Shown piece after piece: positions 1,160-34,350 of a stretch of DNA of 40,260 nt (within the stretch, counting starts at the first letter, position 1; every line of letters starts with the position of its first letter). The DNA is taken from IMG/VR virus record IMGVR_UViG_3300037367_000030, positions 1-40,260 of that record; one strand, written 5' to 3'. The notes beneath the pieces were generated by a model. The model searched no databases and was not told where the DNA came from. It saw only the letters and a program-made list of their open reading frames with translations. The stretch is from a virus. A program made the position numbers and the translations under genes.

Positions 1160-1430
1160 CGATTTGTTACTCCGCAGCAACGCTGCGGGGTTAGGTCATT
1201 TCTGCCTAACTCTGCATCTTTTCCATTGATGCAGACCCGACTATATCTTCATCTGCCAGCGGTCCCGAGGTACACAGCCTCGGACGCTTATGGCAGAGCT
1301 TCACGTGTAGTCTGTACGGACTCTCCCTGTGCGGGTTGCCTCGGTATTCCCCTGATCATTGGCGGGGTTCACCGATACAGTGAAGTTTTCTAGCTTAGGG
1401 TCACCCCTAAGCGGCGGCCATCTCCTGAAA
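1160..1430 (-). ncRNA. Group I self-splicing intron in the capsid gene (271 nt, no ORF)
   Basis: Reading the minus strand, exon 1 ends GGCGGT (1436-1431). The intron begins TTTCAGG and soon contains GCCGCC, which pairs with the exon end through a U-G wobble, the classic P1. The intron ends in G at 1160. A perfect hairpin follows P1 (GCUUAGGG-GUGA-CCCUAAGC). The core has AAUACCGAGGCAACCC (P/Q region), GUACAGACUACACG (R) and GAAGAUAUAGUC (S), so P7 is CAGACUA with UAGUCGG. Three 3' hairpins can be read: GCAUC/GAUGC, GUUAGG/CCUAAC and CCGCAGC/GCUGCGG. Removal joins codon 221 (Gly) to Tyr in phase 0. It encodes no protein; exon 1 runs seven codons into it to a TAG. Confidence 0.93.
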
Positions 1431-2264: not shown

Positions 2265-3779
2265 TCAGAATCCTGACGCCACAGTCATTCCCGTGCCCTG
2301 TATTGAATAAATCGATGCAGGGTAACGATTTGTGATGGCGGCGACGTTGGCGTGCAGGCTGATACGCGCTCCAAGGCTGCCCGAGAGAACGTCGCGCATG
2401 ACTGAGGTCTGCGGAGCGCCTTCAAGCAAAATTAGATCGCTCGGGCGCATGCAGAGAATGAAGTCCTGGTTCGCTCCCGTGCCCTGCGTCGCCTTGATGG
2501 CATCGGAGAGGAACACGGGCCAGCCGATGAGGCCACCGACTGGGTCCGGCGTAGCATCGTCAGAACCGAGGAAGAATGGGGACGGGATCCCGAACGGGCG
2601 TGAGGCGGTGTCTTCAGATGTCTGGAGCCAACTCCATCGAGCCGTACGCATCACCCAGCACTCGGGGGGCAGGTCTCGGGCGTCGCCGAGCTGGCCGGCG
2701 GCCTGACCGAAATAGGCCCACATGGCCGAGCCCGTAGGCGATGCGCTGGAGTAGGTAACGGCGGTGTCAGCGTTGAGCACGCCGAGCAACTCGTTGAAAG
2801 ACGACCCTCGGCCAGTCAACAGCGCCGTTTCCAGGTCCCGGTCGTAGTCCTCGGCCATGTCCTTGAGAAGCGCCCAGTCGAGGTGCGCGCCCTGGGGCGA
2901 CTGCTCGACCATCTGGACGGCCACGTCGGCGATGCCAGCGATGGTCACCACGTTGGAGGACCCAGCCGTGTCGGTGATGTCTGCGCTGGGGACGGGACCG
3001 TCGGGGTTGACGTGCTGGGTCCTGGTCCCGGTGCCGATAATGGGAAGGTTGATCGATGAGACACCCGGCGGCAGGACGAACCTGGGGATCAGGCCAGCCA
3101 CGACGCGCCGGGGGCGCACGGCGGTGGCGAATAATTGGTTCATCCACAGCGGGATGGTGAAGTACCCACCGGTCCCGTCGGTGACATTCGGCTCGACCCG
3201 GTATTCGAACTCGCCCGAGCGCAGACCCCGCAGGGCGCGCTGGTTGCGCTCCTCGGCGATCACCCTCATCTCGTCGCGGTGACGGTTGAGGCGCTGCTCG
3301 GCCGGGGGGTTGTTGTTCGAGGTCAGCAGGTCGGCGAAATAGGAGTGGCGCGAGTGGCGCTCGTAGGTGAGCGGCTCGGACTTGATGGCGACCGTGGGGG
3401 GCTCGGGGTTGAATCGAGCCGGTGCACGGCTCTCTTGAGGATCACGCGAGCCGAGCATCATTGCCAGCGCCCGCATATCGACTCGGCCACCGGAGCGACT
3501 CTCGAGCTTCGATGCGCCCTTCGACTCCGTGATCGGCTCATAGGTGGTCACCTGGACCACGGGCACCGGCTCACCGAGCTTGACGACGTTGCCGGCGTCG
3601 ATGGTGTAGGGCACTTCGAACGTGTCCCCGCCGAGGCTGTAGATCGCCACGGTGTCGGTCATGTCCTGCACCCAGACCCAGCAGTACGGGTCAGACGAGA
3701 TCGACTCCTCGATAGCGTCCTGGATGAGCCGCTGCATGTCGTTGTAAGTCAGCCCCGAACTGCGCAGTGTCATGCTCAT
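2265..3779 (-). CDS. Second HK97-type major (or minor) capsid protein
   Basis: 504 residues; the start ATG overlaps the protease stop (ATGA). Residues 1-90 form a distinct N-terminal domain (DPYCWVWVQDMTDTV, then VTTYEPI) often seen in actinophage capsid precursors. Residues 125-190 resemble the delta/N-arm of capsid protein 1 (SYFADLLT, QRLNRHRDEM). The HK97 core begins VEPNVTDGTGGYF and ends VLSGSLGARISLHANVAA. It is clearly homologous to the intron-containing gene downstream but only moderately similar, so this is an old duplication or a two-protein shell, not a recent copy. Both reading frames look intact. Which one is the main shell protein cannot be told from sequence. Confidence 0.88.
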   Translation of the reverse strand: MSMTLRSSGLTYNDMQRLIQDAIEESISSDPYCWVWVQDMTDTVAIYSLGGDTFEVPYTIDAGNVVKLGEPVPVVQVTTYEPITESKGASKLESRSGGRVDMRALAMMLGSRDPQESRAPARFNPEPPTVAIKSEPLTYERHSRHSYFADLLTSNNNPPAEQRLNRHRDEMRVIAEERNQRALRGLRSGEFEYRVEPNVTDGTGGYFTIPLWMNQLFATAVRPRRVVAGLIPRFVLPPGVSSINLPIIGTGTRTQHVNPDGPVPSADITDTAGSSNVVTIAGIADVAVQMVEQSPQGAHLDWALLKDMAEDYDRDLETALLTGRGSSFNELLGVLNADTAVTYSSASPTGSAMWAYFGQAAGQLGDARDLPPECWVMRTARWSWLQTSEDTASRPFGIPSPFFLGSDDATPDPVGGLIGWPVFLSDAIKATQGTGANQDFILCMRPSDLILLEGAPQTSVMRDVLSGSLGARISLHANVAAITNRYPASIYSIQGTGMTVASGF

Positions 3780-5271: not shown

Positions 5272-5967
5272 CTAGGCGACGCCCAAATGTCGTTTGGCCG
5301 CGTCGCGCAGATAGGCGGCAGCTTGTTCTAGTCGTTCGGGTTCATCTTTGAAGTACCCGATGCCCGTGTTGCAGTAGATGCATAACAGAGCCCGAACGCA
5401 TTGTCCGCACGAGTTCTCGCCAGGACAGCAGGCGTGATCGTGATCGATAACGGCCGGCTCGCCCAGGCAGCCGGATACGGCACACATCCCGTTCTGGGCT
5501 AAAAGAATCGCTGTGTACCACGAATAGGTGACGTTGTGTCTTGCCAACCGACAACACAACTTGCAGGCAGTATGAACGCGACCCGTATCCGGCCGGAGAT
5601 AGAACTCATCTTTCGGGAGGGTGCGCTTGCATCCTCCACATCGCCACTGCCCCAGTCGTCTCAGTCCCTCGGCTTCCCTCCGAGATATGCGGTCCTCGCG
5701 GTAGCCCTTCCCGATCTTGGTGGTCGGGTCACCGTATTTCGCATTCCGTTGGTAGTGCTTGACGCAAAAACCCTTACCAATGGGCTTTCTGCCGCAGTCC
5801 GCCACCGCGCACACCTCGGGGCACGGCACACGGAGTAGAGGCGCATCTGGCGCTCCGTGCTTTAGGTAGCGACGGTAATGCTTGAGACACCACGTTTTGG
5901 CATGCGCAGGTCGCTCGCAACTGGTGATTGAACACACGCTTCGGCTGCCGGGGATACCCTTAGCCAT
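5272..5967 (-). CDS. Endonuclease VII-type HNH homing endonuclease
   Basis: 231 residues, ATG after GGAGGTATCG. The N-terminal half has two repeated zinc motifs (CSITSCERPAHAKTWCLKHY and CAVADCGRKPIGKGFCVKHY), then GCKRTLPKDEFY. The C-terminal half is the endonuclease VII domain: NGMCAVSGC, VIDHDHACCPGENSCGQCVR, LLCIYCNTGIGYF. Asp-His in VIDHDH would be catalytic. It lies between portal and protease, which are normally adjacent, so it is an insertion into the head operon. Its upstream region carries the hairpin leader shared with the genes at 9879 and 16453. The role as a free-standing homing enzyme is inferred. Confidence 0.87.
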   Translation of the reverse strand: MAKGIPGSRSVCSITSCERPAHAKTWCLKHYRRYLKHGAPDAPLLRVPCPEVCAVADCGRKPIGKGFCVKHYQRNAKYGDPTTKIGKGYREDRISRREAEGLRRLGQWRCGGCKRTLPKDEFYLRPDTGRVHTACKLCCRLARHNVTYSWYTAILLAQNGMCAVSGCLGEPAVIDHDHACCPGENSCGQCVRALLCIYCNTGIGYFKDEPERLEQAAAYLRDAAKRHLGVA

Positions 5968-9878: not shown

Positions 9879-10364
9879 CTAAACGGCCAGCGGGAACTCC
9901 CCATCGCTCTTGAATCGATTGATGTACTCCAGGAACGGACCCACCGACGTGCTCTCCAGCCAACCCACCTTGCGATTACAGGAAACACATAGGAGTGCCC
10001 GCACGCATTTCCCGCAGGTGTACCGACCCGGGCAGCAGGAATGGTCGTGATCGACCTGGAACACGTCGTACATGCCGCCGGGTTTGGTCGTGGCGCAGAT
10101 GGCGCAGCCGCCGCCCTGCCTTTTGAGCATGGCATCGAACTCCGCCAGCGTCATCCTGTAGTACTTGCGGAGCTTCAATTCTCGACGCCGCTCGGACGTG
10201 AGCGACTTGGATTGCTCCCTCTCCTGAACCCGTCGGCACTCTCGGCAGTAGGCACGCAACCCACCGGGTCGCTCAGGCGCAGGAGCGAAAGCGGCGGCTG
10301 AAAGGGACTTCCTACACCGCGAGCATTTCTTAAATCTCGCGGACGGGTGGGTAGGCTCACTCAC
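9879..10364 (-). CDS. Endonuclease VII-type HNH homing endonuclease
   Basis: 161 residues from a GTG at 10364 (GGAGG seven bases upstream). It contains a CSRCRKSLSAAAF and CRECRR zinc motif, a basic linker, then GGCAICATTKPGG, FQVDHDHSCCPG, CGKCVRALLCVSCNRKVGWL. This is the endonuclease VII core. It ends 8 bp before the small terminase start and separates that gene from the HNH gene at 10679, which in related phages lies directly beside it. It carries the shared hairpin leader, so I read it as an inserted homing endonuclease. Confidence 0.87.
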   Translation of the reverse strand: MSEPTHPSARFKKCSRCRKSLSAAAFAPAPERPGGLRAYCRECRRVQEREQSKSLTSERRRELKLRKYYRMTLAEFDAMLKRQGGGCAICATTKPGGMYDVFQVDHDHSCCPGRYTCGKCVRALLCVSCNRKVGWLESTSVGPFLEYINRFKSDGEFPLAV

Positions 10365-10440
10365 ATCGACACCTCCATGTCGGTCACGCCCCGGGTGGTT
10401 ACCGCCACGCCGGGGCACTCTTATTTTCTCACGCGGGCGT
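10365..10440 (-). promoter_or_regulatory. HNH-gene leader with GC hairpin and RBS (copy B)
   Basis: Minus strand: AAAATAAG, then the stem GCCCCGGCGTGG/CCACCCGGGGC (10416-10388), CGTGACCGA (10388-10380), GGAGGT and the GTG start. AATAAG upstream may be a -10 box. Stem bases differ from copy A but pair equally well, which supports a conserved RNA fold. Confidence 0.65.
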
Positions 10441-10618
10441 CTCAAGTTTGGCGATGTCAGGACCCGTACTGACTGCCAACACACTGGGCGGGTCGTTTAT
10501 GAAAAATCCGCTGGAAATATCGACCCGCCCCACCCGGGTATACACACATACACCCAGGTCACAGCCATATTCCCTCACCGGGACCTACCGAGGTACTGTC
10601 TCTCCCGCACTGCCAGCC

Positions 10619-10678: not shown

Positions 10679-10981
10679 CTAGGCAACGCTGACTCGTGCT
10701 CCCTTGCTCGAGTTGTGCCGACGGCAGCGACAGCACAGATTCCCTCGCTCGTCAGTTCCACCCATCGCCTTGGGAATGATGTGGTCGCAGGTCAGCGGGT
10801 TACCGGGTAATCCCGTCGTGCCACAGTCCCGGCAGCAACCTTCCTCACGGATGACTCGCTGGGACAGCTTCCGCCACTCGGATCCGTAGCCACGAGCGGT
10901 CGTCGTCCCACACTCGTCGCACAACGATCCATTCGTGGTCAACTCGCTACACCGCAAGCACGGTCGTGGCAACCGTGGCAT
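10679..10981 (-). CDS. HNH endonuclease of the packaging module
   Basis: 100 residues. N-terminal zinc motif CLRCSELTTNGSLCDEC, then GYGSEWRKLSQRVIRE, CCRDCGTTGLPGNPLTCDHI and the HNH core DHIIPKAMGGTDERGNLCC with CRRHNSSKG. This is the classical HNH protein encoded beside terminase genes in many HK97-like phages, where it assists terminase cutting. It differs from the endonuclease VII-type enzymes in the window. Its ATG overlaps the stop of the 52-residue gene upstream (TAATG). Confidence 0.88.
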   Translation of the reverse strand: MPRLPRPCLRCSELTTNGSLCDECGTTTARGYGSEWRKLSQRVIREEGCCRDCGTTGLPGNPLTCDHIIPKAMGGTDERGNLCCRCRRHNSSKGARVSVA

Positions 10982-16303: not shown

Positions 16304-16456
16304 TCAGTCATCACCGATCCCTCTCAATGCCGAGTCGACCAGGAGGACAAGACGGACGAGTTCTTCATGCATGCCGCTGGTTGGAGAGGGTCCTGGCGTC
16401 GGGATGGCGTACCACTCACACTCGATCCGTTCGACTATTTCAGCACGGGTCGTCAT
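16304..16456 (-). CDS. Small protein, unknown
   Basis: 50 residues: MTTRAEIVERIECEWYAIPT, then PTSGMHEELVRLVLLVDSAL. The ATG at 16456 overlaps the stop of the HNH gene, and its stop abuts the replication gene's GTG. Before the HNH gene arrived, it probably followed the gene at 17241 directly. Confidence 0.6.
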   Translation of the reverse strand: MTTRAEIVERIECEWYAIPTPGPSPTSGMHEELVRLVLLVDSALRGIGDD

Positions 16457-16929
16457 TGCCACACCTGCGACTTCTTGCGCCGAAATGGGCCAGACCGTCG
16501 ATTGTTTTCCCCTTGGGGAACCGGCTCCAAGTGCTCAGGGTTGACGCACGATCGATTGCGACAGAGATGGTCGACGTGCAGACCTTCGGGAATCGGTCCC
16601 ACACACCACTCATAGGACCAGCGATAGGCGCGCGTGGTATTGAATGCGCTGTGCTCGCTTACCTGTCCGTAACCCTTGCTGAGGCTGGCCGTCCAGACCC
16701 AGCACCGACCCATTCCGGCTGCGAGGGTCCGCGGGTCCGGGAACGGCCCGTTCTTGTCCACCTTCGACCAGAAGAGGATTCCAGCTTCCTCACCATGGGC
16801 CGCGCACAGCAGCCCGATGGTATGAGGCTCGGAACAATCGACCCGACGGCAGGTCTCACGACCGCCTCTGACCACGGTAAATGACGCCCATTTGCGCGCA
16901 AGAGCAGCAGCAAGGGTATTCTCAGCCAT
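16453..16929 (-). CDS. HNH homing endonuclease (HNH_3 type)
   Basis: 158 residues from the ATG at 16929 (AAGGAGG upstream). It reads FWSKVDKNGPFPDPRTLAAG, CWVWTASLSKGYGQV, RAYRWSYEWCVGPIPEGLHV, then DHLCRNRSCVNPEHLEPVPQ and GENNRR. This is the I-HmuI-like HNH_3 fold with DH..N..N..HL core residues. An N-terminal CRRVDCSEPHTIGLLCAAHG adds a zinc motif. It carries the same hairpin leader as the endonuclease VII-type genes although the nuclease domain differs, so the leader is shared across families. Confidence 0.87.
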   Translation of the reverse strand: MAENTLAAALARKWASFTVVRGGRETCRRVDCSEPHTIGLLCAAHGEEAGILFWSKVDKNGPFPDPRTLAAGMGRCWVWTASLSKGYGQVSEHSAFNTTRAYRWSYEWCVGPIPEGLHVDHLCRNRSCVNPEHLEPVPQGENNRRSGPFRRKKSQVWQ

Positions 16930-17010
16930 CGGGACCTCCTTAGTCAGGGTTAAGGTCTCGGTCACGCCCCGGGTCGTTTGCGCGACGCCGGGGCACTTCC
17001 TTATTCCTGA
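16930..17010 (-). promoter_or_regulatory. HNH-gene leader with GC hairpin and RBS (copy C)
   Basis: Minus strand: GGAATAAGGAAGTG, then the stem GCCCCGGCGT/ACGACCCGGGGC (16994-16966), CGTGACCGA (16966-16958), a spacer, AAGGAGG and ATG. It is nearly identical to copy B in the stem and to copy A around the start. The rest of the gap to 17240 has no clear gene; a frame open from 17157 runs into the HNH gene and looks non-coding. Confidence 0.65.
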
Positions 17011-17135
17011 CTTTAGGGGATCGCGTATACGGAGTCGCGGATGCTTTATACTTCCGCCCCCCGGAGTTTCTGTGGATAGTGATAGCTGAAACGCACGCGC
17101 CAAACCCCCCAGTCGGCCCTCCCGACCGGGCCAAT

Positions 17136-17201
17136 CCACATCTCTCTCATCCATCACTCGCCCCTTTTCAGCGCTCGCTGTCGAACGCCCCCTTGCCTGA
17201 T
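17136..17201 (-). repeat. Intergenic repeat, copy 1
   Basis: Minus strand: GATCAGG, then GCGTTCGACAGCGAGCGC, AAGGGGCGAG and GAGAGAGATG. The same string with small changes occurs at 18627-18692. Both copies lie just behind a gene stop and before the next gene. The plus-strand core CTGTCGAAC is also found at 35290. A regulatory site or a remnant of an intergenic element is likely. Confidence 0.5.
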
Positions 17202-17481: not shown

Positions 17482-18567
17482 TCATATTTGGAATAGGCGC
17501 GGGGTGTCGTCCAGCGTGTACGGCGAGCACCACAGAACCTCGCCGTGGCGATTGTCCTTGTTGCCGCCCGAACTCTCGGAGGTCTGATAGGCGACGGAGG
17601 CCGACCAGCGGATGCGCCGCCAAGTGTCGGGGATCAGGTGGTCGTGCTCGGCCGAATAGCCCGCCAACACGATCCGATAGCGGGGGTTGTCACCATTCGC
17701 CAGGCACCACTCGCGCACCTCATGGGCGATGTCGTGGTCGTCGCTGGCGTAGAGGTCGGCCGTCCTGACCTCGCCGGTATAGGGAGGATCCAAGAAGACG
17801 CCGACGCGGGAACCGAAGCTGAGCGCGCCCTTGGTCACGACGCGGGCCCAGTCGCCGGTGCAGACCCGCACGTCACGGAGACGGCTAGCGAGTTGGCCCA
17901 TGTAGGCCGCGATCCCGTCGCTGCGGTACTCGAGGTTGTTGTAGCCCGCCTTCCCCGCGTCCCCCAGGTGCGGGAGCTGGCGGTTGACACCCTTCCCCGC
18001 GTCCCCCAGGTGCGGGAGCTGGCGGTTGACACCCTGGCCCGCGGTCCCCAGGTGCGGGCGCTGGCGGTTGACACCCTTCCCCGCGTTCCCCAGGTGCGGG
18101 CGCTTGCTTCCGTCGGCCAGCCACGGGCCGTCGCCTGAGCACCATCCTGAGCCGATCCACGCGTTGACACCCCACACCCACCAGCCGGCGATGCGGGCGT
18201 CGTAGAACTCGGGGTCGAGTTCGATGCCCTCGGCCAATATCGCCCGGCCCTCATTGACGAGCCAGAGATGGCGGGCGAACAGGTCGTCCTCGTTCACGGG
18301 CCAGTCCGCATAGGCCGCCACGGCGTCAGGATCGGCCGCTAGAGCACGCCAGAAGTTGCTCAGGTAGTGATCGGCGTCATTGACCGTCTCGGCCCGCCGT
18401 GAGCCGTCCGCGAGGTCGTGGGCACGTCCTAGGAGGACGGCGAGGCTGCCGGCGAACGGCTCGACGTAGTTGTCAACGTCGCCCAGCGCGGCCCAAACCT
18501 CGGCCGCAACCTTGCGCTTGCCACCGAACCAGACGAACGGGGACTTCAGCGGCGCGGCCAGTGTCAC
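17482..18567 (-). CDS. DNA adenine (N6) methyltransferase, D12 class, with internal tandem repeat
   Basis: 361 residues from a GTG at 18567 (GGGAG seven bases upstream). Motif I is KSPFVWFGGKRKVA near the N-terminus, the SAM-binding site of Dam-like enzymes. VEPFAGSLAVLLGR follows, and the catalytic DPPY is in VGVFLDPPYTGEV. It methylates adenine in DNA, presumably to resist host restriction. In the target-recognition region, residues about 155-205 are a 14-residue repeat (RPHLGNAGKGVNRQ) in about four copies. The family normally has no such repeat. An upstream GTG at 18597 has no ribosome binding site. Confidence 0.88.
   Translation of the reverse strand: MTLAAPLKSPFVWFGGKRKVAAEVWAALGDVDNYVEPFAGSLAVLLGRAHDLADGSRRAETVNDADHYLSNFWRALAADPDAVAAYADWPVNEDDLFARHLWLVNEGRAILAEGIELDPEFYDARIAGWWVWGVNAWIGSGWCSGDGPWLADGSKRPHLGNAGKGVNRQRPHLGTAGQGVNRQLPHLGDAGKGVNRQLPHLGDAGKAGYNNLEYRSDGIAAYMGQLASRLRDVRVCTGDWARVVTKGALSFGSRVGVFLDPPYTGEVRTADLYASDDHDIAHEVREWCLANGDNPRYRIVLAGYSAEHDHLIPDTWRRIRWSASVAYQTSESSGGNKDNRHGEVLWCSPYTLDDTPRLFQI
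17957..18110. repeat. 42-bp tandem repeat inside the adenine methyltransferase gene
   Basis: Units start at 17957, 17999, 18041 and 18083, the last one partial. They begin GCGTCCCCCAGGTGCGG and differ at few positions. 42 bp is 14 codons, so copy number can change without breaking the frame. Confidence 0.92.
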
Positions 18568-18626
18568 GCCGACACTCCCATTGTGACCGCGCCCCACCCA
18601 CCCCGGTCCCTGCGGCTTCGTCCTCT

Positions 18627-29526: not shown

Positions 29527-29570
29527 GCGCCCATAGCCCGGGCGCCTTGGCCGAGACGCCGTTACGTCTC
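29527..29570. terminator. Two hairpins between the HNH gene and the next gene
   Basis: GAGACG/CGTCTC with a 6-base loop (29553-29570) covers the HNH stop codon. GCGCCC/GGGCGC (29527-29545) follows. Neither has a T tract. They may limit read-through or protect the mRNA. Confidence 0.45.
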
Positions 29571-30122
29571 GTTGTCGAAGTGGACCGCCGAACGGGCCTC
29601 GGACGGTCCAACGGGAAGCACACGCGTGTCGGACACGAATGCCTCCCGCTCGACCGCCAGGTGCATGCGGTGCTGCTCCCCAGCTCGGCGCCCGTTCTCT
29701 TCCGGCGTCACTGGTTCAAGATGAACGGGGTTGCAGCACCGCCGGTGAAGACAGTCGGCGCCTCCAGCGCAAAACGGATCGTGGGTGTGACACAGGTGAT
29801 CCAGGTCGAGCCCCTCAGGAATCGGGCCAACAAGATGCAGATATCCCCACCGGTGCGCCCCGACCTCGTACTCATTGCGTACAACGAACCGTCCATAGCC
29901 CTTCGTCAGCGGGTCCGTCCAAGGCCAGCACTCGTCAGGCCCACGCTTGTCGACCTTCGACCACCACCGCACCTCATCGTCGTTGTAGACGCGCTTTCGG
30001 ATGAGAGGGTCACCATTCCTGCGCCACCGGTGATAGTGACTCATGCACCAGTCACGACACCTGCGCGGCTTCTCGCAACCGTCGATGCTGCACTTGAGTC
30101 CCTTGTATCGTGGACGGGTCAC
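29562..30122 (-). CDS. HNH homing endonuclease (HNH_3 type)
   Basis: 186 residues from a GTG at 30122 (GGAGGT six bases before). The N-terminal zinc motif CSIDGCEKPRRCRDWCMSHY is followed by VRWWSKVDKRGPDECWPWTD, GYGRFVVRNEYEVGAHRWGY, GPIPEGLDLDHLCHTHDPFC and CCNPVHLEPVTPEENGRR. These are the HNH_3 hallmarks DH..N..HL. It is coupled by GTGA to the gene before it and lacks the hairpin leader of the other three. An insertion in the early operon. Confidence 0.87.
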   Translation of the reverse strand: MTRPRYKGLKCSIDGCEKPRRCRDWCMSHYHRWRRNGDPLIRKRVYNDDEVRWWSKVDKRGPDECWPWTDPLTKGYGRFVVRNEYEVGAHRWGYLHLVGPIPEGLDLDHLCHTHDPFCAGGADCLHRRCCNPVHLEPVTPEENGRRAGEQHRMHLAVEREAFVSDTRVLPVGPSEARSAVHFDNET

Positions 30123-30388
30123 CGCTGTACCTCCGCACGGGCCGCGGTTACCCCAGAAGTGGTGCGAGCCAGCTGCTCCGCCTTGACGACGAGGTCGTAC
30201 TCGTCCTGGCTCAACTCGCGATCCCAACCGAGCCAGCCGCCGCCGTTCTCGGTCCCCTGCAACCCGACCTCGCTCAGCGCGATCCACATACGCTCTTGGT
30301 CGGTGTCGTGCTCAGTGAGGTAGACCTCGCCCACGGTGCCGTCTGGCGCCCAATCGTGCGGCGTGAACGGGCGCTCGTCGATGCTCAC
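30119..30388 (-). CDS. Small acidic protein, unknown
   Basis: 89 residues from a GTG at 30388 (GTGA overlap). VSIDERPFTPHDWAPDGTVG, EVYLTEHDTDQERMWIALSE, then GWLGWDRELSQDEYDLVVKA. The W.D.EL....Y..L pattern looks like a small folded domain. Its stop overlaps the start of the HNH gene. No function known. Confidence 0.6.
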   Translation of the reverse strand: MSIDERPFTPHDWAPDGTVGEVYLTEHDTDQERMWIALSEVGLQGTENGGGWLGWDRELSQDEYDLVVKAEQLARTTSGVTAARAEVQR

Positions 30389-32704: not shown

Positions 32705-33214
32705 ATGGACAATCTGGAGCTTAGCCGGTCTAGTCTGAGTCTAATAATCGGATCTAGCGGCCCGCGATGGCTGACCATCGCCGAAGCAGCCGAAGTGGCT
32801 GGTGAGACTGAGGATCGCATTCGGGCCGAGATCAAAGCGGGGCGGCTTCGGGCAGAACGGGTCACTCAGAAGACGACGAGAGTCAAGCCTTCGGCCGTGA
32901 CCAGGTGGATCAAAGACGGCCGGGGAAGAGAGCGCATCGGAGTGGGCGAGCTCTTCGAGTTGCCTGCCGTCTATCGCATCTATGGCCGGGCCGACAAGCT
33001 CCTCTATGTCGGGTCGACCGGGAATCTCGGCGCCCGAATGAACGGCCACTCCAAGCAGTCACCGTGGTGGCCGAAGGCGCGCTACATCACCATCGAACGA
33101 TTCGCCACCCGATTCGATGCGTACAAAGCGGAGGGCGAGGTCATCCGCGCCGAGAAGCCCACGCACAACGTGACCAATGTCTACTGGGGGTCCCGTCTGG
33201 ACCGCACGTCTTGA
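32705..33214 (+). CDS. Helix-turn-helix/GIY-YIG nuclease fusion
   Basis: 169 residues. Residues 15-65 are an excisionase/MerR-like helix-turn-helix (PRWLTIAEAAEVAGETEDRI, GRLRAERVTQKTTRVKPSAV). Residues 85-160 are a GIY-YIG nuclease: VYRIYGRADKLLYVGSTGNL, then GARMNGHSKQSPWWPKA, FATRFDAYKAEGEVIRAEKP with the conserved Glu, and THNVTN. It precedes the integrase gene and overlaps its start. Role could be regulation, homing or excision control; the fusion is unusual. Start from the leaderless promoter. Confidence 0.82.
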   Translation: MDNLELSRSSLSLIIGSSGPRWLTIAEAAEVAGETEDRIRAEIKAGRLRAERVTQKTTRVKPSAVTRWIKDGRGRERIGVGELFELPAVYRIYGRADKLLYVGSTGNLGARMNGHSKQSPWWPKARYITIERFATRFDAYKAEGEVIRAEKPTHNVTNVYWGSRLDRTS

Positions 33215-34350
33215 CCCGCACCTACGGTACGGGGACCTATTCGCGGGTCCGGCCGGGCGTCTGGCGGTTTCGGGTGTCCGCCAAGGACCCGATCACCGAT
33301 AAGCCCATCCAAGTGTCCAAGACGGTCCATCTCCCTGTCCGCACCGGGAAGAAGGACCTCGAAAAGGTGCTCGGGGCGTTCAGGTCCGAGATCGAGGGGC
33401 GGCGCGCCAGCGGCGCGGCGATGACGTTCGGCAGAGTACTGACCGATTGGCTGGCCGACCTCGAGCGCGAGGGGCGCGCCAAGACGACGCTGGAGACCTA
33501 TGGCTACCACATCGAGGGCAAGATCCGGCCGGCGCTCGGCGACCTCCCGCTGGAGAAGATCGACCCGGCGCGGATCCGGGCGTTCATGGGGTCATTGGGC
33601 GGCTCGGTCCGCACTCAGCGCCTCACCCACGCCATCCTGCGTGGCGCTCTCTCCTTCGCCGTGGTGAGCGACTGGATCGCCACCAACCCCGCCTCACGGG
33701 TCAAGGCGCCGAGGGTGAACGAGGAAGAGACCGAGGCGCTCACCCCGGAGCAGATCGCCACGCTCATCACGGCTGGCAGCCGCCAGGACCCGGTGCTCGG
33801 CGTCACCATCGCTCTCACCGCGGCCGTCGGCTGTAGGCGTGGCGAAGCGGTCGGACTGAAATGGAGCGACGTCGACTGGGACGCCGAGACGATCAGAATC
33901 GAGCGGGCCTGGGTGACCGGCACCGGCGGCCAGCACCTCACCACGACCAAGACGAAGGAGAAGCGGACTGTCTCCCTTCGGGGCTACGGGATGACCGTCC
34001 TGCGGGAATGGCACGCCCACCAGACTGCCCGCTACGGCGAGCTCGGCCCCTGGCTCCTGAGCGACAGCGACGGCTCGGAACCGCTCTCGGCCAGGTGGGT
34101 CACGATGACCTTCACGGCCCTGTGCAGGGCCAACGGGATTGAGGACACGCACTATCACGACGTTCGCCATTTTGCCTCGACTCAGCTCCAGGACAAGACC
34201 GATGCCAAGACGGCGGCCAGCCGGCTGGGCCACTCGCCCAAGGTCATGCTGGAGACCTACGCCCACGCCATCGCCGAGCGGGATGCCCTCGCTGCGGTGG
34301 CTCTGGGCGACGTGATCGCTAAGGCGCTTGCGGCGCCGAAGGAGAAGTGA
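33211..34350 (+). CDS. int: Tyrosine-family phage integrase
   Basis: 379 residues from a TTG at 33211 that overlaps the upstream stop (TTGA). The N-terminal arm-binding domain (GVWRFRVSAKDPITDKPIQV) and a core-binding SAM-like domain (FGRVLTDWLADLEREGRAKT) precede the catalytic domain. Active-site residues: Arg in AAVGCRRGEAVGLKW (about 210), His-x-x-Arg in HYHDVRH (316, 319), His in LGHSPKV (341) and Tyr350 in METYAHA. It integrates and excises phage DNA. A longer frame to 32905 lies inside the GIY-YIG gene. attP was not identified. Confidence 0.92.
   Translation: MTRTYGTGTYSRVRPGVWRFRVSAKDPITDKPIQVSKTVHLPVRTGKKDLEKVLGAFRSEIEGRRASGAAMTFGRVLTDWLADLEREGRAKTTLETYGYHIEGKIRPALGDLPLEKIDPARIRAFMGSLGGSVRTQRLTHAILRGALSFAVVSDWIATNPASRVKAPRVNEEETEALTPEQIATLITAGSRQDPVLGVTIALTAAVGCRRGEAVGLKWSDVDWDAETIRIERAWVTGTGGQHLTTTKTKEKRTVSLRGYGMTVLREWHAHQTARYGELGPWLLSDSDGSEPLSARWVTMTFTALCRANGIEDTHYHDVRHFASTQLQDKTDAKTAASRLGHSPKVMLETYAHAIAERDALAAVALGDVIAKALAAPKEK

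Follow-up and report, generated by a model that had tools for sequence, protein, structure and literature searches.

An ORF-less group I intron akin to those of BAKA and LittleE in a phage major capsid gene, and its relatives in the capsid genes of uncultured phages

The interrupted capsid gene and its surroundings

The stretch of DNA we analyzed, hereafter the window, is an IMG/VR virus record of 40,260 bases. On its minus strand, two coding segments of one capsid gene are separated by 271 nt. Exon 1 (1431–2093; 221 aa) begins with an ATG at 2093 and is homologous to intact relatives, and exon 2 (185–1159; 324 aa), which starts with YFIPP, matches Pfam Phage_capsid (3.8e-6) and the major head protein family PHROG 2263 (5.4e-29). 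Read without splicing, the locus gives two frames, one of 228 aa (2093–1407) and another that ends at 185, which both resemble parts of one capsid gene. Joining 2093–1431 to 1159–185 produces an open frame of 545 aa with DGYGGYFIPP spanning the junction. An earlier note on this DNA had proposed that splicing in frame yields a 545-residue HK97 capsid protein, and at the sequence level the joined frame, together with its Phage_capsid and PHROG 2263 matches, supports the proposal. The insertion is in phase 0, after the codon GGT (Gly221), and eight IMG/VR contigs that encode relatives of exon 2 all have a gene that is continuous at the homologous codon. By analogy with LittleE, whose capsid has the mature N-terminus DLDRNNGTGGYAVP (PMC3706429), exon 1 would mostly correspond to the N-terminal part cut off by the head protease.

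Upstream lies a paralogous capsid gene of 504 aa (2265–3779, minus strand; PHROG 2263, 5.6e-24), which has the motif DGTGGYF and no intron, and which is 33% identical to the spliced protein over 433 aa. The two HK97-type genes, about 33% identical, thus stand in tandem on the minus strand (2265–3779 and 185–2093). Seven IMG/VR relatives (L004, L006-L011) keep the tandem pair with an orthologue for each, whereas the cluster J mycobacteriophage MiaZeal has a single capsid gene. Elsewhere in the window, the presence of a tyrosine-integrase-like gene (32905–34350, plus strand; phrog_1, 1.6e-58) suggests that the phage is probably temperate, and a frame at 17482–18597 (minus strand) holds in its middle tandem repeats of about PHLGNAGKGVNRQ. 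A search for the host through relatives returned no capsid or intron match in bacterial genome contigs, and none in plasmids.

Structure of the intron and its probable splicing

The sequence between the exons, from 1430 down to 1160 of the minus strand, is a real group I intron of a known kind, and it had been correctly placed: the coordinates, the exact splice sites (GGCGGT at the end of exon 1, AAATCG at the end of the intron), the P1 pairing and the terminal G read in the earlier note were borne out to the base. Its identification as a group I intron was confirmed by a match to the Rfam model RF00028 (1440–1212, E 2.6e-9), by P1 and P10, and by covariation in 54 relatives, and its description as ORF-less also stands, the 271 nt being filled by structure. 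The MFE z-score of the folded intron is −6.0. In the Rfam check suggested in the note, the match covers the entire model, but at 42.3 bits it falls short of the gathering score of 50, and because of this a default Rfam scan of the window does not report the intron. The introns of LittleE and BAKA, proven by RT-PCR, score lower than the window intron (30.7 and 28.6, respectively), and an RF00028 scan of six contigs with close relatives of the window intron (L027-L032) gave no matches at E 0.01. A score under the cut-off, together with the empty scan of these six contigs, implies that the intron family is easily missed.

The elements of the intron can be followed along the minus strand. In P1, a helix of 7 bp, the end of exon 1 (CGGCGGU) pairs with the internal guide sequence GCCGCCG (1412–1418), the last pair being the U·G at the 5′ splice site; in P10, GAGAUG (1419–1424) forms 6 bp with UAUUUC, the first six bases of exon 2. 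When the 5′ segment of the intron was shuffled 20,000 times, the combined P1 and P10 score was reached in 25 cases. Both helices occur at equivalent places in LittleE, BAKA and L022, whose exon sequences differ. The P2 hairpin (1394–1411) shows compensatory changes in relatives at all seven of its pairs, and P3, formed by CUUCAC (1380–1385) and GUGAAG (1299–1304), at five of six. The P4-P5-P6 domain (1318–1375) was assigned from the RF00028 match and the alignment of relatives, the 5′ strand of P7 (CAGAC with a bulged A, 1310–1314) from covariation at the pair beside the bulge, the P8 stem-loop (1252–1298) from the RF00028 match and the predicted fold, and J8/7 with the 3′ strand of P7 (UGAAGAUAUAGUCG, 1238–1251) again from RF00028. 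Hairpins P9, P9.1 and P9.2 follow (1172–1235), with compensatory changes at six of eight pairs in P9 and at six of six in P9.1, P9.2 being left out of the count. The intron closes with GUAACAAAUCG (1160–1170), which includes the terminal G. GUAACA is invariant in the 54-sequence alignment; family members end in GTAACAA or in GTAACAG, and both were used for length calls.

In the alignment of the 54 relatives, paired cells amount to 97.8%, and both partners change in 26 of 43 pairs, although the rows are related by descent and the covariation counts are therefore not independent events. None of 500 shuffles attained the observed values, and slid versions of the alignment pair at 34–41%. Covariation was found in P2, P3, P6, P7, P9 and P9.1. 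The P7 pair beside the bulge, for example, is GC in 49 relatives, CG in three and AU in two, and the third pair of P6 is GC in 27, CG in 24, AU in two and unpaired in one. P4 and P5 are invariant because our search pattern fixed their letters, so they lend no independent support. Taken together, the window intron has a P3-P9 core with a bulged P7, a P1 with the U·G pair, a terminal G and a P10; its exons join in one frame, and intron-free alleles exist. P7.1 and P7.2 are marks of group I subgroup IA; only five bases separate the 5′ strand of P7 from the 3′ strand of P3 in the window intron, so these elements seem to be absent.

We consider it very probable that an uncultured tailed phage carries here, in a major capsid gene, a self-splicing group I intron of the kind known from BAKA and LittleE. 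The most likely mechanism is the usual group I splicing, in two steps, of the late capsid transcript. The intron would fold in this transcript, and P1 would form between the GGCGGU that ends exon 1 and the internal guide. Guanosine would attack after the U at the 5′ splice site, and the freed exon 1 would attack after the terminal G with the help of P10, leaving ligated exons that encode the 545-aa capsid protein. An early in-frame stop would keep ribosomes out of the core in the meantime.

An intron family in capsid genes and the readings it allows

We scanned IMG/VR with a pattern for the intron core, one without any information on capsid genes, and obtained 78 contigs with about 88 introns; since the pattern demands particular P4/P5 letters, these sample one part of intron diversity. 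Addition of the window, LittleE, BAKA and L022 gave 92 intron rows, some of which are IMG/VR copies of known mycobacteriophages, in 62 clusters at 92% identity. At least 56 of the 62 clusters adjoin major-capsid coding sequence, as judged by adjacency to reference proteins, a share that can be inflated by the preference of IMG/VR for contigs with hallmark genes; 23 clusters have capsid homology on both sides. Of the other six clusters, two interrupt major tail genes and two have no assignment, the remaining two being sited in a minor tail gene and a portal gene, respectively. Consistent with this, PHROG assigned 51 flanking fragments mainly to major head proteins (phrog_1357, 23; phrog_10, 21; phrog_2263, 8; plus phrog_752 and phrog_29), a minor tail protein and a portal being the exceptions, and Pfam assigned the flanks to Phage_capsid (19), Phage_capsid_4 (19) and Phage_capsid_3 (16), with overlaps among them. 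The interrupted capsid genes represent five or more PHROG MCP families, and the introns lie in them at over a dozen positions, the position labels having been set by eye from translations and being less firm than the family counts. No ORF was found in 55 of the 62 clusters. These results describe a single family of compact group I introns, most of them ORF-less, which occupies the major capsid genes of many uncultured, unrelated phages and has entered them at new positions again and again.

The earlier note had thought it unusual to find such an intron in a capsid gene of a high-GC phage and without its own endonuclease. This found no support, as both LittleE and BAKA provide precedents (PMC3706429) and the wider family is largely capsid-sited and ORF-less. 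The intron kind itself has been known since the mycobacteriophage work of 2013; what is new is the scale of the family and its concentration in capsid genes, and the latter is the part worth following. This opens two questions to testing: what draws these introns to capsid genes, and by what means they still move when they lack an endonuclease. There is also a practical side, as capsid genes with these introns look broken or split and the Rfam default cut-off passed over the window intron. Two introns lie close together in what is apparently one capsid gene in L029, L060, L061, L065, L072, L077, L096 and L097, and the non-capsid members include introns in major tail protein genes and a portal gene (L037 at 11426 and L062 at 3918, oriented; L069 at 2260).

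In the tree, the introns of the window, L027, L032, BAKA, LittleE and L022 form one clade (support 99/97). All of them occupy the GG|Y capsid site except that of BAKA, which is nested among capsid-site introns. The next branches hold introns at a GG|Y site of another MCP family (phrog_10), and many deeper forks are without support. L040 and L078 pair (100/97); their introns interrupt genes of two MCP families at a site of the same type, which suggests intron transfer between capsid families. The window and L027 introns branch outside the subclade that holds the endonuclease-bearing introns of their group, so that of the window may have lacked an endonuclease from the start. A LAGLIDADG motif occurs in five of the 62 clusters and is absent from the window intron, which thus has no endonuclease gene of its own as a mobile intron would. 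The LAGLIDADG-bearing introns (L081, L040, L032, L012, L022) are all in phrog_2263 capsid genes, the family of the window.

Endonuclease VII-type HNH genes lie in the window at 5272–5967, between the portal and protease genes, and at 9879–10484 (both minus strand), and are possible free-standing homing endonucleases. With further HNH endonuclease genes at 16453–17157, 29562–30287 and 10679–10981 (minus strand), there are at least five in 40 kb. As a source of mobility, free-standing HNH/endonuclease VII genes showed no family-wide association, HNH-like genes being found within about 3 kb in only five of the 41 clusters for which enough context was available. Co-conversion was considered for the exon DNA that flanks the intron, and rejected: the five codons after the splice site have a low GC3 (0.4, rank 0.03), but windows of 8 and 10 codons and codon identity to L006 gave nothing convincing. 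The window intron probably arrived from the equivalent site in the capsid gene of a different phage, and homing with the enzyme supplied in trans would be one route by which an intron without an endonuclease could spread.

The early stop mentioned above is a UAG at the boundary between P1 and P2 (1407–1409, minus strand), in the frame of exon 1; unspliced read-through would end there in ...GGFQEMAAA*. Such stops are a known feature of many group I introns, and the halting of the ribosome before the core is an accepted idea (PMC3984707). With the frame of exon 1 chosen by codon bias, which could be called in 51 clusters, the first stop of the upstream coding frame precedes the catalytic core in 49. 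For 42 of the 51 coding frames this first stop lies upstream of the P4 anchor by 20–45 nt, compared with 20 of 102 for the other two frames. In-frame tails end in Ala-Ala before the stop in 25 of the 51 clusters. As the guide GCCGCC itself encodes Ala-Ala, no separate selection need be invoked for these tails, and their reading as ssrA-like degrons is speculation only.

Could the locus instead be a broken or split gene, with the exons as two genes, exon 2 starting from a TTG at 1180 inside the intron and the paralogue at 2265–3779 making the head? A TTG-started frame of 331 aa does exist (185–1180), and the second capsid gene upstream is intact. Nevertheless, TTG 1180 falls in the P9.2 hairpin, relatives keep both capsid genes, the RNA between the exons is a covarying group I structure, and the two frames meet precisely at a codon that is uninterrupted in eight relatives, all of which makes a split gene extremely improbable. 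We find it scarcely credible, too, that the intron is a degenerate copy, once active, that has lost splicing in the window phage. Its core helices, P1, P10 and terminal G are all intact and the exons are open and conserved, as fits a working gene; and while the lack of an endonuclease and the Rfam score below the gathering cut-off would suit degeneration, that score exceeds those of two introns known to splice.

Ordinary two-step splicing, which we prefer over both, might also serve an extra role, if the intron gated capsid production or if unspliced RNA gave a truncated protein that is useful or short-lived. The capsid concentration of the clusters would fit such a role, as would the position of the end of exon 1 in the window, near the LittleE capsid cleavage point, and the somewhat ssrA-tag-like Ala-Ala tails. 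However, these tails translate the conserved guide and pairing alone can explain them, in other members the stop comes immediately or the tail has another ending, introns inserted at other places of the capsid gene miss the cleavage boundary, and an early in-frame stop is common to many group I introns. We regard an extra role as unlikely. It is likewise doubtful that the capsid concentration is adaptive for phage or intron, with splicing, coupled to translation through the stop codon, that times or limits capsid production, and with a truncated read-through protein (C-terminal tail EMAAA in the window) that is functional or rapidly degraded.

Comparison with known introns

The annotated DNA nearest to the window intron is that of cluster J mycobacteriophages. 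Pope et al. (2013) described an endonuclease-bearing intron in the capsid gene of LittleE and an ORF-less intron of 265 nt in a minor tail gene of BAKA, and proved the splicing of both by RT-PCR (PMC3706429); for the window intron, we infer splicing from structure, kinship and intact alleles. The LittleE intron belongs to the same sequence family (77% identity over 75% of the window intron) and interrupts a homologous capsid gene at the identical GG|Y codon position and phase. It measures 808 nt by the boundaries derived here (about 820 in PMC3706429) against 271 nt in the window, the extra length being due to a homing-endonuclease gene encoded on the opposite strand. The BAKA/Optimus intron is ORF-less like that of the window, to which it is 76.9% identical over 87% of the length and up to the last base; it shares the GGCGGT target, but its host is a minor tail gene. 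The insertion sites are GGCGGT|TAT in the window, GGTGGT|TAC in LittleE and GGCGGT|AAA in BAKA. The window intron thus joins the BAKA/LittleE family both by sequence kinship (77% identity, clade support 99/97) and by insertion after GGT in a virion structural gene. Compared with RF00028 (Intron_gpI), it shows all the core elements and a full-length match, but its score stays under the curated cut-off. Group I introns, several per gene, are also present in the MCP genes of crAss-like phages (Yutin et al., 2021; PMC7886860). These resemble the window intron in their location, a likeness drawn from their description, but they were found mainly via endonuclease domains, and polymerase and primase genes are hit as well (PMC7886860).
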